DNA of 34,773 nucleotides from Pseudomonadota bacterium (GTDB lineage: Bacteria; Pseudomonadota; Gammaproteobacteria; Eutrophobiales; Eutrophobiaceae): contig JACZSJ010000014.1 of the NCBI GenBank assembly GCA_022574295.1, positions 1-34,773 of the forward strand, written 5' to 3'. Position 1 is the stretch's first letter. Each line of letters opens with the position of its first letter. Made by a program: the position numbers and the translations under genes. The notes beneath the pieces were generated by a model. The model was not told the origin of the DNA. It made no database searches and saw only the letters and a program-made list of their open reading frames with translations. Positions 20,279 through 29,663 of the stretch are shown here, piece after piece.

Positions 20279-21139
20279 TCAAACAACATTTGTCATGTCA
20301 GTTTTAAATGCCTGATAAATTTCTGATGCTTGTTGCCATACTTCACCAGGGCGACCCGTCCCAACAGGATTGTTATCCAGACTTATCACAGGCACTATCT
20401 CCCAGGTGGAACTGGTAATCCATATTTCATCAGCCTGTTTTAACTCTGTCTCCTTGATTGCAACCTCTTCACATGGAATACCTGATTCGGTTAATAATTC
20501 AACAACCAGATCTCTTGTGATTCCTGGCAGCAAGCTACCATCTTTTGGCGGGGTTTTCACAATACCGTTTTTGACAATAAATACGTTGCTTGCCGCACCC
20601 TCCGTGATATAACCATCTTTGACCAATATTGCTTCAGTTGCGCCTGCATCCCTTGCTTTATGTCGTAGCATAACACTAGGCAGTAAAGTGATGGCCTTGA
20701 TATGACAATATTTCCATCTTATATCTTCTTCTATGATTGCTGATATTCCTGCAGAACGATCGTATTCAGGTAAGGGCCTGCACATTGCAAATACGGTTTG
20801 TTTGGTAGCAATATCAATTGCGTGATCTCTTTCTGAAATTCCTCTGGTTACTTGCATATATAAAGACAGATCATTCCCAGTATTCTTGCCCGAATTCTTT
20901 TCAACCAATTTGCACAATATTTCCTGCCACTGTTCTAACGTATAAGGCCTGTCTATATAAACCTCATCAAGGCTATTATTCAGTCTCTCAAGATGTTCCC
21001 TCATTCTGAAAATATGGCCTTTATAGACAGGGATCACCTCATAAACGCCATCACCAAAGGTAAATCCACGATCCAGAACGGAGATTTTTGCGTCTTCAAT
21101 CGGCAAGTATTGGCCATTAAGATAAACAATATAAGACAT
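20279..21139 (-). CDS. dat: D-amino acid aminotransferase (class IV PLP enzyme)
   Basis: The enzyme interconverts D-alanine and 2-oxoacids with D-glutamate or other D-amino acids, supplying or recycling D-amino acids for peptidoglycan. From the ATG at 21137-21139 it has 286 residues. It has the fold-type IV features: LDRGFTFGDGVYEVIPVYKG at the N-terminus, PLP-binding Lys148 in HIKAITLLP, EGAASNVFIV and LLPGITRDLVVELL. A TTG five codons upstream is open but unsupported by a ribosome-binding site. It starts 7 nt after the dacC stop. Such aminotransferase genes often lie between dacC and ybeD in gammaproteobacteria. A branched-chain aminotransferase is less likely given the context. Confidence 0.88.
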   Translation of the reverse strand: MSYIVYLNGQYLPIEDAKISVLDRGFTFGDGVYEVIPVYKGHIFRMREHLERLNNSLDEVYIDRPYTLEQWQEILCKLVEKNSGKNTGNDLSLYMQVTRGISERDHAIDIATKQTVFAMCRPLPEYDRSAGISAIIEEDIRWKYCHIKAITLLPSVMLRHKARDAGATEAILVKDGYITEGAASNVFIVKNGIVKTPPKDGSLLPGITRDLVVELLTESGIPCEEVAIKETELKQADEIWITSSTWEIVPVISLDNNPVGTGRPGEVWQQASEIYQAFKTDMTNVV

Positions 21140-21146
21140 GATAGTT

Positions 21147-22286
21147 TTACTCAAAGAGTAATAAAAAATTATCCTTTAAACGAACGATAACACTACCTTC
21201 ATTAACAGACTGTAATGCAATTAATTTTGCATCAGCGATATCTTCATCAGCAAGAGTGATTTTCAGATTTCCCAGTACATTGCCCCTGTTTACAGGGGCA
21301 ATATATTTTTCTGAAAGATTAAATTCTGTCTTTAGCTGATTTTTCTGTCCCCTGGGAAAGGTTACGTATAGATCGGCATCTAAGCCAAGGACCAGTTCTT
21401 CTGTATCGCCTTTCCATATTTTCACGGAAGTAATATTTTCATTTGCACCATATAGTCTCTGTGTCTCATAGAACCGGAAACCATAAGCAAGTAATGACTG
21501 GGTCGCTTTCGCCCTTGCACCTTCACTTTCAGCACCCATTACCACAGAGATAAGCCGCATATTTTCCTTTTTTGACGATGCCACCAGGCAAAAACCCGCA
21601 GCCTCTGTGTGACCCGTTTTAATCCCATCTACATCTGGATCACGCCAAAGCAATTTATTTCTGTTTTGTTGGGTTATTTTGTTGAACGTGAATTCCTTTA
21701 CAGAATGTAAAGCATATATTTCAGGGGCGTTCCTGATTAGAGCATCTGCAAGAATTGCCATGTCCTTTGCCGTCGTATAATGCTGTTCATCCGGCAAACC
21801 TGTACTATTAATAAAATGACTGTTAGTCATCCCCAGCTTAGTTGCATATTGATTCATGAGTTCTGCAAATACATCTTCACTTCCAGATATATGTTCAGCC
21901 AGAGCGACACTTGCATCGTTTCCAGATTGGATGATGACACCTTTCAATAGATCACCAACGGATACTTTTTTATTCACTTCAATAAACATGCGTGAACCGG
22001 GCGTCTTCCAGGCCTTTTTACTCACTAACACCTCATCATCCAACGTAACCCTGCCTGATTCTAATTCATTTGCAACAACATAGACTGTCATCATCTTGGT
22101 CAGGCTTGCTGGCGAGATTTTCTGATCAATATTCCTCGAAGCAAGAATTTTTCCACTATCAAAGTCCTGAAGAAGATATGCGCTCGCCTTAATGCCTGGA
22201 GGCGCGGGAATTGCCGTCACACCTGCGCAAACGAAGCCACTAAAAAGTAATTGCCCGATCAGGGATATTAATATTTTTTTAATCAT
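21147..22286 (-). CDS. dacC: D-alanyl-D-alanine carboxypeptidase (PBP5/6 family)
   Basis: This low-molecular-weight penicillin-binding protein removes the terminal D-Ala of peptidoglycan pentapeptides. The 379-residue precursor has a signal peptide (1-25, MIKKILISLIGQLLFSGFVCAG). The catalytic motifs are SLTK (61-64), SGN (121-123) and KTG (223-225), followed by a C-terminal beta-domain. It ends in an amphipathic membrane-anchor helix (VIVRLKDNFLLLFE). It sits between rlpA and dat in the elongation cluster, and the released D-Ala could feed Dat. It could equally be called dacA; family members are hard to separate by sequence. Confidence 0.93.
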   Translation of the reverse strand: MIKKILISLIGQLLFSGFVCAGVTAIPAPPGIKASAYLLQDFDSGKILASRNIDQKISPASLTKMMTVYVVANELESGRVTLDDEVLVSKKAWKTPGSRMFIEVNKKVSVGDLLKGVIIQSGNDASVALAEHISGSEDVFAELMNQYATKLGMTNSHFINSTGLPDEQHYTTAKDMAILADALIRNAPEIYALHSVKEFTFNKITQQNRNKLLWRDPDVDGIKTGHTEAAGFCLVASSKKENMRLISVVMGAESEGARAKATQSLLAYGFRFYETQRLYGANENITSVKIWKGDTEELVLGLDADLYVTFPRGQKNQLKTEFNLSEKYIAPVNRGNVLGNLKITLADEDIADAKLIALQSVNEGSVIVRLKDNFLLLFE

Positions 22287-22330
22287 AGAAGTCTAGCTCA
22301 CTTGCTTACAAGTTATTTCATATAAATGTT

Positions 22331-23185
22331 TTAGTTAATGACAATATGGTGCTCAGATCCATTAAGCTGAATTAATTTCTGAACTATCTTATCTGCAATA
22401 GCCACATCTGATAGTGGCCCTATTCTCACTCTATAGAGTGTTCTGTTGTCAATCACCACCTGGCTTATTTTTACCAGTGCATTGCCGATGACATTTAATT
22501 TTCTACGTAGACTTTCCGCATTATCTAACTCAGAAAAAGCCCCCACCTGTATGAAAAAATAACCCGGCGAATATTCAGGAGAGATAGTTTCAATGGCAGC
22601 GCCCCTTTCCCCAGAAGTATATCCTGGCTGCACTACACGTATTTTTACTAATGCAGTCCCCTTGGCAACAACATCAAGTTTTGTTGCGGCTGCATAAGAC
22701 AAATCGATAATCCTGTTCTCATGAAAGGGGCCTCTGTCATTCACCTTTACAACTACTTTTTTGCCATTCTCCAGATTGGTTACTTCAACATAGGCAGGCA
22801 ATATTAACGTCTTATGTGCTGCTGTCATTGTATACATATTATAGCTCTCACCGGACGATGTTCGCTTACCATGAAATTTCTTGCCGTACCATGATGCAAT
22901 CCCCTGCTGGCTAAATCCTCTATTGTCATTCATCACATAATAACGTTTATCAAAGACAACATAAGATTCTGGATTTCCATATTTACTTCTTGTTTCCAAT
23001 TTTGGTACAGCATCAGGGACAGATGAAACATCCACATGTTTCTCGGGGGCACTATCACGCTCGACTGTGACATAAGAACACCCGGCTAATGTCACAATAA
23101 CGAATGCCAAAAATATTAATAATGGACAAATATACCTATCCAGAGTTGGTCTGAATAAGACCCTATTGTATATTTTGTTTTTCAA
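22331..23185 (-). CDS. rlpA: Rare lipoprotein A-type septal-ring lytic transglycosylase with SPOR domain
   Basis: RlpA cleaves peptide-free (denuded) glycan strands and localises to the septum through its SPOR domain. The product has a lipoprotein signal with lipobox LAGC (Cys36). A double-psi beta-barrel domain covers about 90-185 (GIASWYGKKFHGKRTSSGE, VVVKVNDRGPFHENRIIDLS). A C-terminal SPOR domain covers about 205-284 (GYFFIQVGAFSELDNAESLRRKL). No ATG precedes the signal peptide. TTG at 23183-23185, overlapping mltB by 23 nt, gives 284 residues and is the most plausible start, presumably coupled to mltB translation. The order mrdA-rodA-mltB-rlpA-dacC is conserved. Confidence 0.92.
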   Translation of the reverse strand: MKNKIYNRVLFRPTLDRYICPLLIFLAFVIVTLAGCSYVTVERDSAPEKHVDVSSVPDAVPKLETRSKYGNPESYVVFDKRYYVMNDNRGFSQQGIASWYGKKFHGKRTSSGESYNMYTMTAAHKTLILPAYVEVTNLENGKKVVVKVNDRGPFHENRIIDLSYAAATKLDVVAKGTALVKIRVVQPGYTSGERGAAIETISPEYSPGYFFIQVGAFSELDNAESLRRKLNVIGNALVKISQVVIDNRTLYRVRIGPLSDVAIADKIVQKLIQLNGSEHHIVIN

Positions 23186-24209
23186 CAGCAGTTTCTTTCT
23201 CGTATTCTATTTTGATTGATTCGGATAATTGATATACGGCCATGGCATACAATGCGCTGTGATTATACCGCGTAATGACATAAAAGTTATGCAGTCCAAG
23301 CCAGTAATCATAGTGATCCTTCTGCTCAAATTTCAAAACTTTCAGCAAAACAGTATCCGGGATATCCTGATTAAAAATAAGACCATATTTTTTCAATTCA
23401 TGCGGTCTGATATGTGGTTTCAGATCGTTATTTATTATTTCATTCACTCTATTCCCTGTGATACTGACAGGGAATGTAACCAGTTTGCCTGTTTCCCAGC
23501 CATGGCGATTAAAATAATTTGCAACACTGCCGATTGCATCGATCGGATTCAGCCATAGATCCTTCTTTCCATCTGAATCAAAATCCACGGCATATTCCCG
23601 GTAGCTGCTGGAAATAAATTGCGGGATCCCCATCGCACCTGCATATGACCCTTTCAATGACAATGGATCAATATTCTGCTCCCTGGTTAACAGCAAAAAC
23701 TGCTCCAGCTCACCACGAAAAAAATCAGCACGCTTTGGATAATGAAAAGCGAGTGTAGCCAGGGAATCCATCACTTTATCTTTACCTTTATACTGGCCGT
23801 ACTGTGTTTCAACGCCAATGATAGAGATAATTATTTGTGGCGGGATACCATAGACATCTTCCGCTCTATTCAAGGATGCTTCATGCTTTTTCCAGAATCT
23901 GACACCTTTTTTAATACGAGTATCTTTTAAAAAGATGCGACGATATTGATACCATGCCAAATCTTCAGCGGGCTGTGACATCGCAAGTAAAACTTTATCT
24001 GAATACTTCGTCCCACCGAATAATATTCTTAAGCTGTTTGTATCAAAACCATGCTTGGTCACCATTTTATCAATAAATTGATTTACCAGATCGGAGTCCA
24101 ATGATTTAGTAAATCCTATACCTGGCAATATCAATATTAAAATCACACTGCTTCTTAATAAGTGACACATACATTTTCCCGGTCGAACAAACATATTTAT
24201 TAATTTCAT
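23163..24209 (-). CDS. mltB: Membrane-bound lytic murein transglycosylase B
   Basis: MltB cleaves the MurNAc-GlcNAc bond of peptidoglycan with formation of 1,6-anhydroMurNAc. The 348-residue product has an N-terminal hydrophobic signal (about 18-34) with no clear lipobox, so it may be a secreted or anchored form. The catalytic domain has Glu134 in GVETQYG. Conserved blocks are GSYAGAMGIPQFISSSYREYAVDFDSDGKKDLW, NPIDAIGSVANYFNRHGW and YNHSALYAMAVYQLSE. It starts 13 nt after the rodA stop and overlaps rlpA by 23 nt. Confidence 0.94.
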   Translation of the reverse strand: MKLINMFVRPGKCMCHLLRSSVILILILPGIGFTKSLDSDLVNQFIDKMVTKHGFDTNSLRILFGGTKYSDKVLLAMSQPAEDLAWYQYRRIFLKDTRIKKGVRFWKKHEASLNRAEDVYGIPPQIIISIIGVETQYGQYKGKDKVMDSLATLAFHYPKRADFFRGELEQFLLLTREQNIDPLSLKGSYAGAMGIPQFISSSYREYAVDFDSDGKKDLWLNPIDAIGSVANYFNRHGWETGKLVTFPVSITGNRVNEIINNDLKPHIRPHELKKYGLIFNQDIPDTVLLKVLKFEQKDHYDYWLGLHNFYVITRYNHSALYAMAVYQLSESIKIEYEKETAVEKQNIQ

Positions 24210-24222
24210 ATTTCAGACTGAT

Positions 24223-25323
24223 TTAGCTGGATAGTATTCTTCTGTGCGTATGAATTGACATCAGAATACCGAAAGCCACCATCAATGTGACCATCGATGT
24301 GCCACCATGGCTAATTAAAGGCAATGGCACACCCACTACCGGTAACTGACCTATCACCATACCCATATTAACGAAGATATAGACAAAAAATGTCAGTGTC
24401 AGTGCGGCGGCAAGTAATTTTCCGTAAGTCTGTTGTGCATTAGCAGCTATATATAAACCACGTGCAATAATGAATAGATAAATACACAGTAGAAGTAATA
24501 CACCCATCAGGCCAAACTCTTCACAATACACAGCAAAAATAAAATCAGTCGAACGCTCTGGTAAAAATTCAAGATGAGATTGCGTACCATTCAACCAGCC
24601 CTTACCGTAAATTCCACCTGAACCGACTGCAATCATGGATTGAATGATGTGGTACCCAGCACCTAGTGGATCCTGTTCCGGGTTAAACAGTGTTAATACA
24701 CGACGTTTCTGATAATCGTGCATAAAATACCAGAGTATCGGCGCGCACATACTACAGAGAGCACCAAATATCAGAATAATTTTCCAACGTATCCCGGCGA
24801 TAAATAATACAGAAAGACCCGCAGTTGCAACCAGTAATGAGGTCCCCAGATCAGGTTGTTTCGCAATTAAAGCGACAGGAATAATTATCATCAACCCGAC
24901 AATGATTATGTTGCCGATATTTGGCGGCAATGTTTTGTTGGCAAGGTACCAGGCTACGACCATAGGCACAGACAATTTCATTAACTCGGAAGGTTGAAAT
25001 CTGAAAAACCCCAGATCTAGCCAACGTTGTGCTCCTTTTCCAACATGCCCCACCCATAACACCGTTACCAGCGTGGCAATGCCGGCGATAAAAAGCCATA
25101 GGGACCATCTTTCTATGACAGCTGGGGGTAATTGCGCAACTAAAAACATGAATACGAAAGCCACCCCCATCCGCGTCGCCTGCCTGATGATAATACCGAG
25201 ATCTTCCCCGCCAGCACTGTAAAGTACCATTAAGCCTAAACCACATAACACCAGTAACCCAAAGCATAGAGGCACGTCCAGATGAAGTCGTTTGGAGAGT
25301 GACTGCTGTTCAAAAGGTTTCAT
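24223..25323 (-). CDS. rodA: Rod-shape peptidoglycan glycosyltransferase RodA
   Basis: RodA is the SEDS-family polymerase that makes glycan strands for cell elongation with PBP2. The 366-residue protein is an integral membrane protein (about 10 segments). It has family blocks GAQRWLDLGFFRFQPSELMKL, KQPDLGTSLLVA, GSGGIYGKGWLNGTQSHLEFLPERSTDFIFAVYCEEFG and PVVGVPLPLISHGGTSM. Its ATG overlaps the mrdA stop by 4 nt (ATGA), a sign of translational coupling to its partner transpeptidase. It corresponds to E. coli mrdB. Confidence 0.97.
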   Translation of the reverse strand: MKPFEQQSLSKRLHLDVPLCFGLLVLCGLGLMVLYSAGGEDLGIIIRQATRMGVAFVFMFLVAQLPPAVIERWSLWLFIAGIATLVTVLWVGHVGKGAQRWLDLGFFRFQPSELMKLSVPMVVAWYLANKTLPPNIGNIIIVGLMIIIPVALIAKQPDLGTSLLVATAGLSVLFIAGIRWKIILIFGALCSMCAPILWYFMHDYQKRRVLTLFNPEQDPLGAGYHIIQSMIAVGSGGIYGKGWLNGTQSHLEFLPERSTDFIFAVYCEEFGLMGVLLLLCIYLFIIARGLYIAANAQQTYGKLLAAALTLTFFVYIFVNMGMVIGQLPVVGVPLPLISHGGTSMVTLMVAFGILMSIHTHRRILSS

Positions 25324-27179
25324 TTAAGGTTCCCTGATTCATCCAGCAAATAGTGATCTAACAGCTTTCTTCCTATCGGCGCGGCTGTTGATGATCCACC
25401 ACCACCGTTTTCTACGACGATGGCAAGTGCAATTTTGGGCTGCCTGGCCGGTGCAAATGCGATAAATAATGCATGATCACGTAAATGTTCCGGCACTTCA
25501 TCTTTCTCGTATTTTTCATCCTGACCAATACCAAAGAGCTGGGCAGTCCCTGTCTTTCCAGCAATCCTGTAAGCAGCGTTTGCACCACTACGCCTGGCCG
25601 TTCCTTTCGCTCCGTGCATGACATCTTCCATCGCCTGTATCACAAAATTCCAATGTTCCTGTTTGTAGCCAGCAACATATTCTGGTGTTGCAACAGGAAG
25701 GAGTGTGGATTCTCCTGAAATCGGATCACTAATTTTGTACACCAACCTCGGAAGAACACGTTTCCCATGATTGGCCAAAGCAGCAGTTGCCGTGACAAGT
25801 TGTAGTGGGGTCGTCAGAACATAACCCTGCCCGATGCCAGCAATTAGTGTCTCGCCGGGATACCAGGGTTGATTCAATGCGCTACGTTTCCAGTCAATTG
25901 AGGGAACCAGTCCAGTTGATTCTCCACCGATATCAATCCCTGTTTTAAAACCAAAGCCAAAATTTGTTAGCGCCTGATTCAATCTGGTGATACCAAGATC
26001 ATGTGCCAGTGTATAAAAATAAACATCACAGGACTGCATAATTGCATAATTCAAATCCACATGCCCATGCCCCCCCTTTTTCCAGTCACGATAACGATGA
26101 TCCTGCCCCTTCAATGTGTACCAACCCTTACACCAGGTCTTTTCATCTACATCCCTGACACCAAACATAAGTGCGGCGATCGCTAAAAATGGTTTTATCG
26201 TAGAACCTGGTGGATATTTACCACTCAGCGCCCTGTTGATGAGTGGCGTATCCCTGGAACTGAGTAGCACTTTATATGATTTGGAATCAATACCATTGAC
26301 AAAGGGATTAGGATCATAGGCAGGTGAACTGACAAGGGCCAGAATATCACCATTGTCTGGGTTCATGGCAACAATAGATCCTTTTCTTCCCTGCATTAAA
26401 CTTAATGCGACGGTCTGAAGTGAAAGATCTAGTGTCAAATAAATATTTTTCCCCGGTTCTGGCGGTGTTCTTTCAAGTACCCGGATGATCCGACCTTGTG
26501 CATTTACCTCGACTTGTTGATGACCAACATGCCCATGCAATATATCTTCGTAGGCTTTCTCAACACCAAGTTTTCCAATATGCGTCGTCCCCAGATAATT
26601 TGACTCCACAATTTTTTGCAGATCTTTCTCATCAATTCTGGCGACATATCCTAATGCATGCACCAAAGTTGATTTCTCGGGGTAGTGGCGATAAGGACGG
26701 GCAATCACCTTGGCACCGGGGATCTTATGTCGCTCAACAGAGAAACGCGCGACTTCATCCTCTGACAGGTTAAATTTAAGTGGTATGCTTTCAAAACGTC
26801 TTTTCTCACGACGTAGCTTCTTAAAGCGATTCACACTATCTTCATCGATATCAATAAGCCTGGAAAGTTGACCTATGGTCTTATCCAGACTGTCTATTTG
26901 TTCCGGAATCAGTTCAAGACTAAAAGAGGGTTGGTTATCTGCAAGCAGAACATTGTCACGGCTGAAGATTAAACCCCGGATCGGTGCAATAGGTAAAACC
27001 TTTACCCTGTTACTCTGAGATAAAGTAATAAAGTGATCATGTCGAATCACTTGTAGATAAAACAATCTTGCAACAAGCACCATGACTATCAGAATAATAA
27101 TGACAACTGCAGAATAGATACGAAGACGGATGAGCCGTGATTCTTCTTCGGTATCTTTAATTGTGAAATTTAAACCCAT
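25320..27179 (-). CDS. mrdA: Penicillin-binding protein 2 (elongation transpeptidase)
   Basis: PBP2 is the transpeptidase of the Rod complex. The 619-residue protein has one N-terminal membrane segment (about 22-43). The non-catalytic pedestal region includes NRVKVLPIAPIRGLIFSRD. The transpeptidase domain has STIK (326-329), SCD (383-385) and KTG (542-544). E. coli PBP2 has 633 residues. It lies 15 nt downstream of mreD and overlaps rodA by 4 nt. Extension at the C-terminus is minimal, and all catalytic motifs are intact. Confidence 0.97.
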   Translation of the reverse strand: MGLNFTIKDTEEESRLIRLRIYSAVVIIILIVMVLVARLFYLQVIRHDHFITLSQSNRVKVLPIAPIRGLIFSRDNVLLADNQPSFSLELIPEQIDSLDKTIGQLSRLIDIDEDSVNRFKKLRREKRRFESIPLKFNLSEDEVARFSVERHKIPGAKVIARPYRHYPEKSTLVHALGYVARIDEKDLQKIVESNYLGTTHIGKLGVEKAYEDILHGHVGHQQVEVNAQGRIIRVLERTPPEPGKNIYLTLDLSLQTVALSLMQGRKGSIVAMNPDNGDILALVSSPAYDPNPFVNGIDSKSYKVLLSSRDTPLINRALSGKYPPGSTIKPFLAIAALMFGVRDVDEKTWCKGWYTLKGQDHRYRDWKKGGHGHVDLNYAIMQSCDVYFYTLAHDLGITRLNQALTNFGFGFKTGIDIGGESTGLVPSIDWKRSALNQPWYPGETLIAGIGQGYVLTTPLQLVTATAALANHGKRVLPRLVYKISDPISGESTLLPVATPEYVAGYKQEHWNFVIQAMEDVMHGAKGTARRSGANAAYRIAGKTGTAQLFGIGQDEKYEKDEVPEHLRDHALFIAFAPARQPKIALAIVVENGGGGSSTAAPIGRKLLDHYLLDESGNLK

Positions 27180-27194
27180 GCCCGATATTGCTTA

Positions 27195-27683
27195 TCAGGC
27201 CACGTTATATTGACGGCGTATGTCCCTGAGGATAACAAACAACCATGGCCACAAAACCATGCTGCTTATTGCAGGCATCCAATAGGCCCATGTCTGGGGG
27301 GGTATTCCCATAATTCCGCTAACCCATGAGGAAATGAGTAAATAAAATATGATGATGAACCCAATCAGACAGGATTGTTGCACCAGTGGAAATAGTCGAA
27401 ACCGTTTGTGAATCTGAATCACAAAATAAGCAATCAATGCAAGACCCAGGGCATTTTGTCCAAGTAAGGTACCTTGTTGCACATCTAACAATAGACCCAG
27501 ACACCACGCAATACCAATACCTATCCTTTCAGGTAGCGCCATACACCAGTATATCAGTACCATCGCGACCCAGGCAGGTCGCCAATCATCAGCCCAGATG
27601 GGCAATGGCAAAGCCGTTAACAGGAAGGCTATCAATAAGCTGGTGAATATAATCCAGCCACCCGTATTTTTGTTTAACATCAT
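27195..27683 (-). CDS. mreD: Rod shape-determining protein MreD
   Basis: MreD is a small polytopic membrane protein that links MreC to the elongation machinery. The product has about five hydrophobic segments and family features such as LPLPIWADDWRPAWVAMVLIYWCMALPERIGIGIAWCLGLLLDVQQGTLLGQNALGLALIAYFV. Two starts are open. GTG at 27687-27689 gives 164 residues. ATG at 27681-27683 gives 162 residues and makes the ATGA 4-nt overlap with the mreC stop; I choose that one. It is followed by mrdA after 15 nt. Confidence 0.92.
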   Translation of the reverse strand: MMLNKNTGGWIIFTSLLIAFLLTALPLPIWADDWRPAWVAMVLIYWCMALPERIGIGIAWCLGLLLDVQQGTLLGQNALGLALIAYFVIQIHKRFRLFPLVQQSCLIGFIIIFYLLISSWVSGIMGIPPQTWAYWMPAISSMVLWPWLFVILRDIRRQYNVA

Positions 27684-28582
27684 TGCCACGCTGAGACATC
27701 TAGGTCATCCAATAGATTTGGGTCATCTAATGGCGATTCAAAATTTGACGGCAACTGAGAGATCGATTTTGGCCAGACCAATAAAACCTCTCTACTCTTT
27801 TCAAGTTGCGCACTGGGAAGTATGGTTACCTTGGCAAAAGGTTCACCTGGAACTCGACTGATATTATAAACAATACCCACAGGGTAACCTGGAGGAAACC
27901 TGCTTCCCAGGCCTGAAGACACAACCAGATCTCCTTCTTTGATATCAACGTTATTGGGTAAATGTTCCAGCTGTAAAACATGACTTTGTCCAGTACCAAC
28001 AGCAACTGATCTTAAGCCGTTACGATTGATTTGAACGGGAATTGCATGCATCGGATCAGTCAACAAAAGTACCGTACTCGAAAATGGACCAACATGCACT
28101 ACCTGCCCCATCACACCATTTGCATCAACAATAGGTTGCCCTTCGTAAACGCTTTCACGCCGGCCTTTATTGATCACGATCTGATGTCTGAATGGTTGTA
28201 AATCAACTGCCAGTAATTCTGCAATTAATACACGCTCGCCAAGTTTCTCTGAAGACTTTAGCATTTCCCTGAGACGTTCATTTTCTGCCTCAAGAATTTC
28301 AAATTTCTGTACCTTGGAACTGAGTATCAGTTGTTCCTCACGTAATCGAGTGTTCTCTTTCACCAGGCCAGCGCGCGTAGTCAAAGACTCGGATGCCCAG
28401 TTTATGACTGTAACGGGTAGATCAGCAACGTATTGCAATGGATATACAAATACGGTAAGTACCGAGCGCACCCTCTCTAGATGACCCTGTCGATGATCAA
28501 CAGTCATCATAATTAATGAGGCCAGAATGAACGCAACAATGCGCACATTGGCGGAAGGACCCTTTAGAAACAGCGTACTTAT
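27680..28582 (-). CDS. mreC: Rod shape-determining protein MreC, apparent ATA start
   Basis: MreC is a periplasmic scaffold of the elongasome that activates PBP2-RodA. It has an N-terminal membrane anchor (VRIVAFILASLIMMTVDHR), a coiled coil (about 75-115) and two beta-barrel subdomains (GVMGQVVHVGPFSSTVLLLTDP, GDLVVSSGLGSRFPPGYPVG). The first standard start, GTG at 28544-28546, has no ribosome-binding site and removes the conserved LFxxGPS segment. The frame is open upstream to a stop with only an ATA at 28580-28582 placed 7 nt after a perfect AAGGAG (28590-28595). This gives MSTLFLKGPSANVRIVAF (300 residues), just like family members. An ATA start or an ATG-to-ATA sequence error both fit. 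It overlaps mreD by 4 nt. Confidence 0.92.
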   Translation of the reverse strand: MSTLFLKGPSANVRIVAFILASLIMMTVDHRQGHLERVRSVLTVFVYPLQYVADLPVTVINWASESLTTRAGLVKENTRLREEQLILSSKVQKFEILEAENERLREMLKSSEKLGERVLIAELLAVDLQPFRHQIVINKGRRESVYEGQPIVDANGVMGQVVHVGPFSSTVLLLTDPMHAIPVQINRNGLRSVAVGTGQSHVLQLEHLPNNVDIKEGDLVVSSGLGSRFPPGYPVGIVYNISRVPGEPFAKVTILPSAQLEKSREVLLVWPKSISQLPSNFESPLDDPNLLDDLDVSAWQ

Positions 28583-28589
28583 TGTCTGT

Positions 28590-28595
28590 CTCCTT
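28590..28595 (-). promoter_or_regulatory. Strong Shine-Dalgarno that decides the mreC start
   Basis: The minus strand reads AAAAAGGAGAC. AAGGAG is followed, after 7 nt, by ATA (28580-28582) in the mreC frame. No ATG, GTG or TTG in any frame lies at a suitable distance, so this site points to initiation at ATA. Confidence 0.7.
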
Positions 28596-28613
28596 TTTTT
28601 GTATTAAATCGGG

Positions 28614-29663
<1,050 letters not shown>

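Follow-up and report, generated by a model that had tools for sequence, protein, structure and literature searches.

An AUA start codon behind a strong Shine-Dalgarno sequence in mreC, and the common occurrence of AUU, AUC and AUA starts of this gene in Gammaproteobacteria

To our knowledge, confirmed AUU, AUC or AUA starts in bacteria are few. The classic IF3-regulated gene is infC, which encodes IF3, starts with AUU, AUC or AUA and is autoregulated by its own product. Escherichia coli pcnB starts with AUU (Binns and Masters 2002, cited in PMC13009471) and, as far as that citation describes it, is a gene outside any feedback that is held low by its start codon. In Staphylococcus aureus, cvfC1 (AUU) and ccpN (AUA) combine such codons with unusually strong Shine-Dalgarno (SD) sequences that are conserved in relatives, and conserved AUU/AUA starts with extended SD yield about 10% of AUG expression in poor medium (PMC13009471). 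Streptomyces sigR has a GTC start that gene callers had overlooked, and its repression by IF3 was shown experimentally (PMC5472188). Non-canonical starts are repressed by IF3 (PMC5472188), and weak third-base pairs are rejected by this factor (PMC10158994).

The window analysed here is the whole stretch of 34,773 nucleotides of contig JACZSJ010000014.1 (assembly GCA_022574295.1). Its mreC gene, present as one copy in the source genome, lies between mreB and mreD, both of which match their Pfam families, and its product matches the MreC family with an E-value of 2.9e-42 (144 bits, cut-off 28). According to names read off the translations, positions 20279-29660 of the (-) strand hold a complete cell-elongation cluster (mreB-mreC-mreD-PBP2-RodA-lytic transglycosylase-RlpA-DacA, plus an aminotransferase), with lipB/lipA further along on the same strand. 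The features of the locus are given in Table 1.

Table 1. Position of the mreBCD genes and of the elements around the mreC start in the window.
Feature	Position	Strand	Remarks
mreC CDS	27680..28582	(-)	300 aa counted from ATA; Pfam PF04085
mreC initiation codon ATA	28580..28582	(-)	sole start compatible with upstream in-frame stop, SD and LFxxGPS; aligned codon ATT/ATC/ATA in relatives
Shine-Dalgarno AAGGAG	28590..28595	(-)	spacer to ATA of 7 nt
In-frame TAA stop	28604..28606	(-)	7 codons upstream of ATA; upstream bound of the mreC frame
GTG, first canonical codon in the mreC frame	28544..28546	(-)	start there would drop 12 conserved residues
mreB (control gene)	28614..29660	(-)	ATG start; Pfam MreB_Mbl
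mreD (control gene)	27195..27689	(-)	GTG start; overlaps mreC end; Pfam MreD

The initiation region reads, on the (-) strand, TAG (mreB stop, 28616-28614) cccgatttaatacaaaaAAGGAGacagaca ATA AGT ACG CTG TTT CTA AAG GGT CCT TCC GCC AAT GTG CGC. We use AUH for ATT/ATC/ATA (AUU/AUC/AUA) and canonical for ATG/GTG/TTG; the ATA is an AUH codon at the position defined by the SD. The mreC frame contains no canonical codon between the TAA at 28606-28604 and the GTG at 28546, and this TAA precludes a canonical start further upstream. An earlier note on this DNA had described the LFxxGPS motif as encoded before the GTG in a frame free of ATG, GTG and TTG, with an ATA 7 nt past AAGGAG; the sequence bears out both statements, all the coordinates given there were correct, and the N-terminus predicted from the ATA, (M)STLFLKGPSANVRIV, agrees with it. 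Local mRNA structure was rejected as an explanation, the start region folding no better than shuffles (z -0.47).

We compared this codon with the aligned position in relatives, a check that the earlier note had proposed, using loci from whole genomes and named GTDB contigs, and found ATT, ATC or ATA. An independent assembly of the same genus (96% protein identity) also carries ATA, and a second one (L004, 85% identity) carries ATT. Family members with 58–71% identity have ATT or ATC and rarely ATA at the same codon, often with an in-frame stop 2–10 codons upstream, and 60 additional loci, in most cases a single one for each family, gave the same picture. In total, 261 unique mreC loci were aligned and the LF anchor could be placed in 230, from across the GTDB class Gammaproteobacteria. 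An AUH codon just before LFxxGPS was the sole possible start in 122 out of these 230 loci; another 70 had a canonical codon nearby (a few of them also with AUH at the exact site), and 16 combined AUH at the site with a distant upstream canonical codon. AUH occupied the start column in 130 out of 229 aligned loci (57%) versus 58 out of 1187 (5%) for columns -12 to -6 upstream summed, and is thus far above chance at this column. AUH-only loci were present in 56 of the 112 family codes. AUH starts were found in the isolate Thiohalobacter thiocyanaticus Hrh1, in assemblies labelled Methylophaga, Rickettsiella, Ca. Aquirickettsiella, Chromatiales and Legionellales, and in a 6-Mb genome, Pseudomonas-like as inferred from its MreC, where the mreC start reads TAGGAGCCGGTC ATC AAA CCG ATA TTC.

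The earlier note had raised an ATG-to-ATA error, and these counts bear directly on the possibility that the true codon is ATG and that ATA reflects a sequencing or assembly error or a recent mutation. A single transition separates the two codons and the source is a draft assembly of 175 contigs; however, with ATA in one independent congener and ATT in another more than one error would be needed, and 122 loci in 56 families, including that of the isolate Hrh1, have an AUH codon only, which makes the probability of such an error practically negligible. The same note had called an ATA start very rare, and this holds for AUH starts in general but not for gammaproteobacterial mreC, in which AUH is the common state.

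A start at the GTG at 28546, which would leave the upstream LFxxGPS stretch untranslated, has in its favour that this is the first canonical codon of the frame. It is refuted for the genus, as the congener L004 has GTT at this position; relatives show no conserved canonical codon there, and the well-placed SD belongs to the ATA, with none such before the GTG. Moreover, the motif Gly (79 loci) and Pro (86 loci) were kept among the 122 AUH-only loci with all four third bases in use; in nearly all of these loci, the two codons came before the first possible canonical start. Since these residues are kept as protein while the third bases vary, translation covers the codons from the AUH up to the first canonical one, and we regard initiation at the GTG as highly improbable.

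CTG and ACG are capable of weak initiation in bacteria, and the ACG at 28576 and the CTG at 28573 lie at most 9 nt from the ATA, so that one of them could be the start and the conserved AUH incidental. Relatives, however, hold TTA, CTA, ATT, ATC, CCG, ACA and other codons at these places while the AUH is constant, and the SD spacing suits the ATA, which leaves this alternative as improbable as the previous one. We consider it near certain from these comparisons, with ATA and ATT in the congeners and 122 loci devoid of any other start, that mreC genuinely begins at the ATA at 28582-28580, as the earlier note had favoured. Initiation there would take place with fMet, by analogy with infC, pcnB and sigR.

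The other genes of the locus served as controls. The mreB start was canonical in all the 216 surveyed loci and the mreD start in all the 224, which shows that AUH starts are not produced by the method itself; within mreBCD the AUH start is specific to mreC. The infC gene of the source genome (L306), taken as a positive control, starts with ATC directly after TAA CAT and is thus a second AUH-start gene in this genome, and in relatives with a readable start infC has ATT, ATC or ATA. The AUH codon is not obligatory for mreC, since ATG serves relatives from the enterobacteria and the Alteromonadales well: E. coli mreC has an ATG start and a weak SD (a search of E. coli with mreC DNA as query gave no match, and the locus was reached through mreB), while Alteromonadaceae have ATG, TTG or GTG, mostly with little SD. 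In other classes of the same phylum, the readable loci among 20 offered a possible canonical mreC start, as picked by a crude script that took several wrong frames.

The strength of the SD differed markedly with the type of start codon. The median SD-antiSD pairing at mreC was -7.6 kcal/mol for AUH loci (n=122) versus -3.05 kcal/mol for canonical loci (n=64), the difference having p=2.5e-16 when only aligned columns were used, and a phylogenetic regression gave -3.9 +/- 0.6 kcal/mol for AUH versus canonical (p=6.5e-9). The mreB SD of the same loci did not differ between the AUH-mreC and canonical-mreC groups (p=0.21), which rules out a general lineage difference in SD. Coupling via the distance from the mreB stop was also rejected, as the distances of AUH loci (median 63 nt) and canonical loci (median 45 nt) overlapped widely.

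We then considered the third base of the start codon on a FastTree phylogeny of MreB and MreC only. Changes among A, C and T were frequent, and those to or from G were about six-fold under-represented (omega 0.15, LR 21, p=4.5e-6; omega 0.16, p=2e-5 in the strict set). The effect was not significant at 6 out of 7 control codons and weak at Arg +9 (p=0.02), and a strict independent-pairs test, underpowered as it was, went in the right direction (about 4 to 0, median p 0.125). Given that ATA becomes ATG by a single transition, the scarcity of G would point to selection against an efficient start unless a weak SD accompanies it. It is on this point that we weighed a further alternative, in which the AUH start is real but a historical relic, offset by a strong SD and without any regulatory role or selected low output. 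A strong SD could indeed restore expression in full, and ATG is present in several lineages. However, a relic should often have reverted through that one transition, and the lineages with ATG have a weak mreC SD next to an ordinary mreB SD, as if output were low either way; we therefore consider a mere relic unlikely, though clearly less so than the alternatives above.

Our preferred reading is that the ATA is a weak start discriminated against by IF3, accompanied by a strong SD and selected to limit MreC output, and we hold this to be probable. The initiator fMet-tRNA would pair with AUA through the first two bases only, and the mismatched third base would make it a weak start subject to IF3, as in infC, for which the strong SD would compensate in part. 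Both the IF3 sensitivity and the reduced output are assumed by analogy with infC, pcnB and sigR. The AUH start would then keep MreC synthesis from the shared mreBCD mRNA below the level of an AUG, and may also link this synthesis to IF3 or initiation conditions. The trade-off with the SD and the scarcity of G give indirect support to the limit on MreC output that the earlier note had proposed; they suggest that MreC production is kept low on purpose, and that a strong SD plus an AUH codon may be an old, selected trait of gammaproteobacterial mreC. MreC is an activator of PBP2 and is opposed by MreD, and E. coli cells become shorter and wider under excess MreC, the shortening being counteracted by MreD (PMC7793260); because of these properties a limit on MreC synthesis at initiation is plausible. 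More tentatively, in much of the Gammaproteobacteria an IF3-sensitive AUH start might set MreC output and couple elongation to the state of translation initiation, with AUG lineages using a weak SD instead.

The mreC start resembles infC in its conserved AUH codon without a canonical alternative, and infC has such a codon (ATC) in the same genome; however, infC encodes the discriminating factor itself and forms a feedback, whereas mreC functions in cell shape and occupies the middle position of its operon. As cited, pcnB shares the low, non-feedback expression by AUU but is another gene. The cvfC1 and ccpN starts are backed by Ribo-Ret and reporter measurements in Staphylococcus (PMC13009471), whereas the mreC case lies in another phylum and spans at least 56 families. 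Streptomyces sigR shares the non-AUG start of a regulated gene, but this is GTC rather than AUH and the gene encodes a regulatory sigma factor (PMC5472188). AUH starts were thus already known from infC, pcnB and ccpN/cvfC1, and mreC is a new and unusually widespread case; a literature search, with subscription journals mostly outside its reach, turned up no paper on a non-AUG mreC start, so an earlier description is possible. What stands out is that a core morphogenesis gene has an AUH start across at least 56 families, with the start codon measurably traded off against SD strength. Gene callers restricted to ATG, GTG and TTG would clip or mis-start MreC in AUH genomes. It also becomes testable whether initiation fidelity sets the dosage of MreC, which alters E. 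coli shape when raised (PMC7793260).

Finally, 17 relatives, including Nevskiales, had an apparent GTG, TTG or ATG start of mreC about 9–17 codons before the LF motif, that is an N-terminal extension (e.g. loci L079, L089, L090, L158, L203, L236, L276 and L284), which would appear to be another way to lack the AUH start. The metagenome-assembled genome CR_Sed_300A_bin.101 contained two mreC copies (L040 and L059) that are almost alike around the start; the codon is ATG in one and ATT in the other, and a strong SD precedes each. The two copies probably represent two strains or mixing in the bin, and form a natural ATG/ATT pair.
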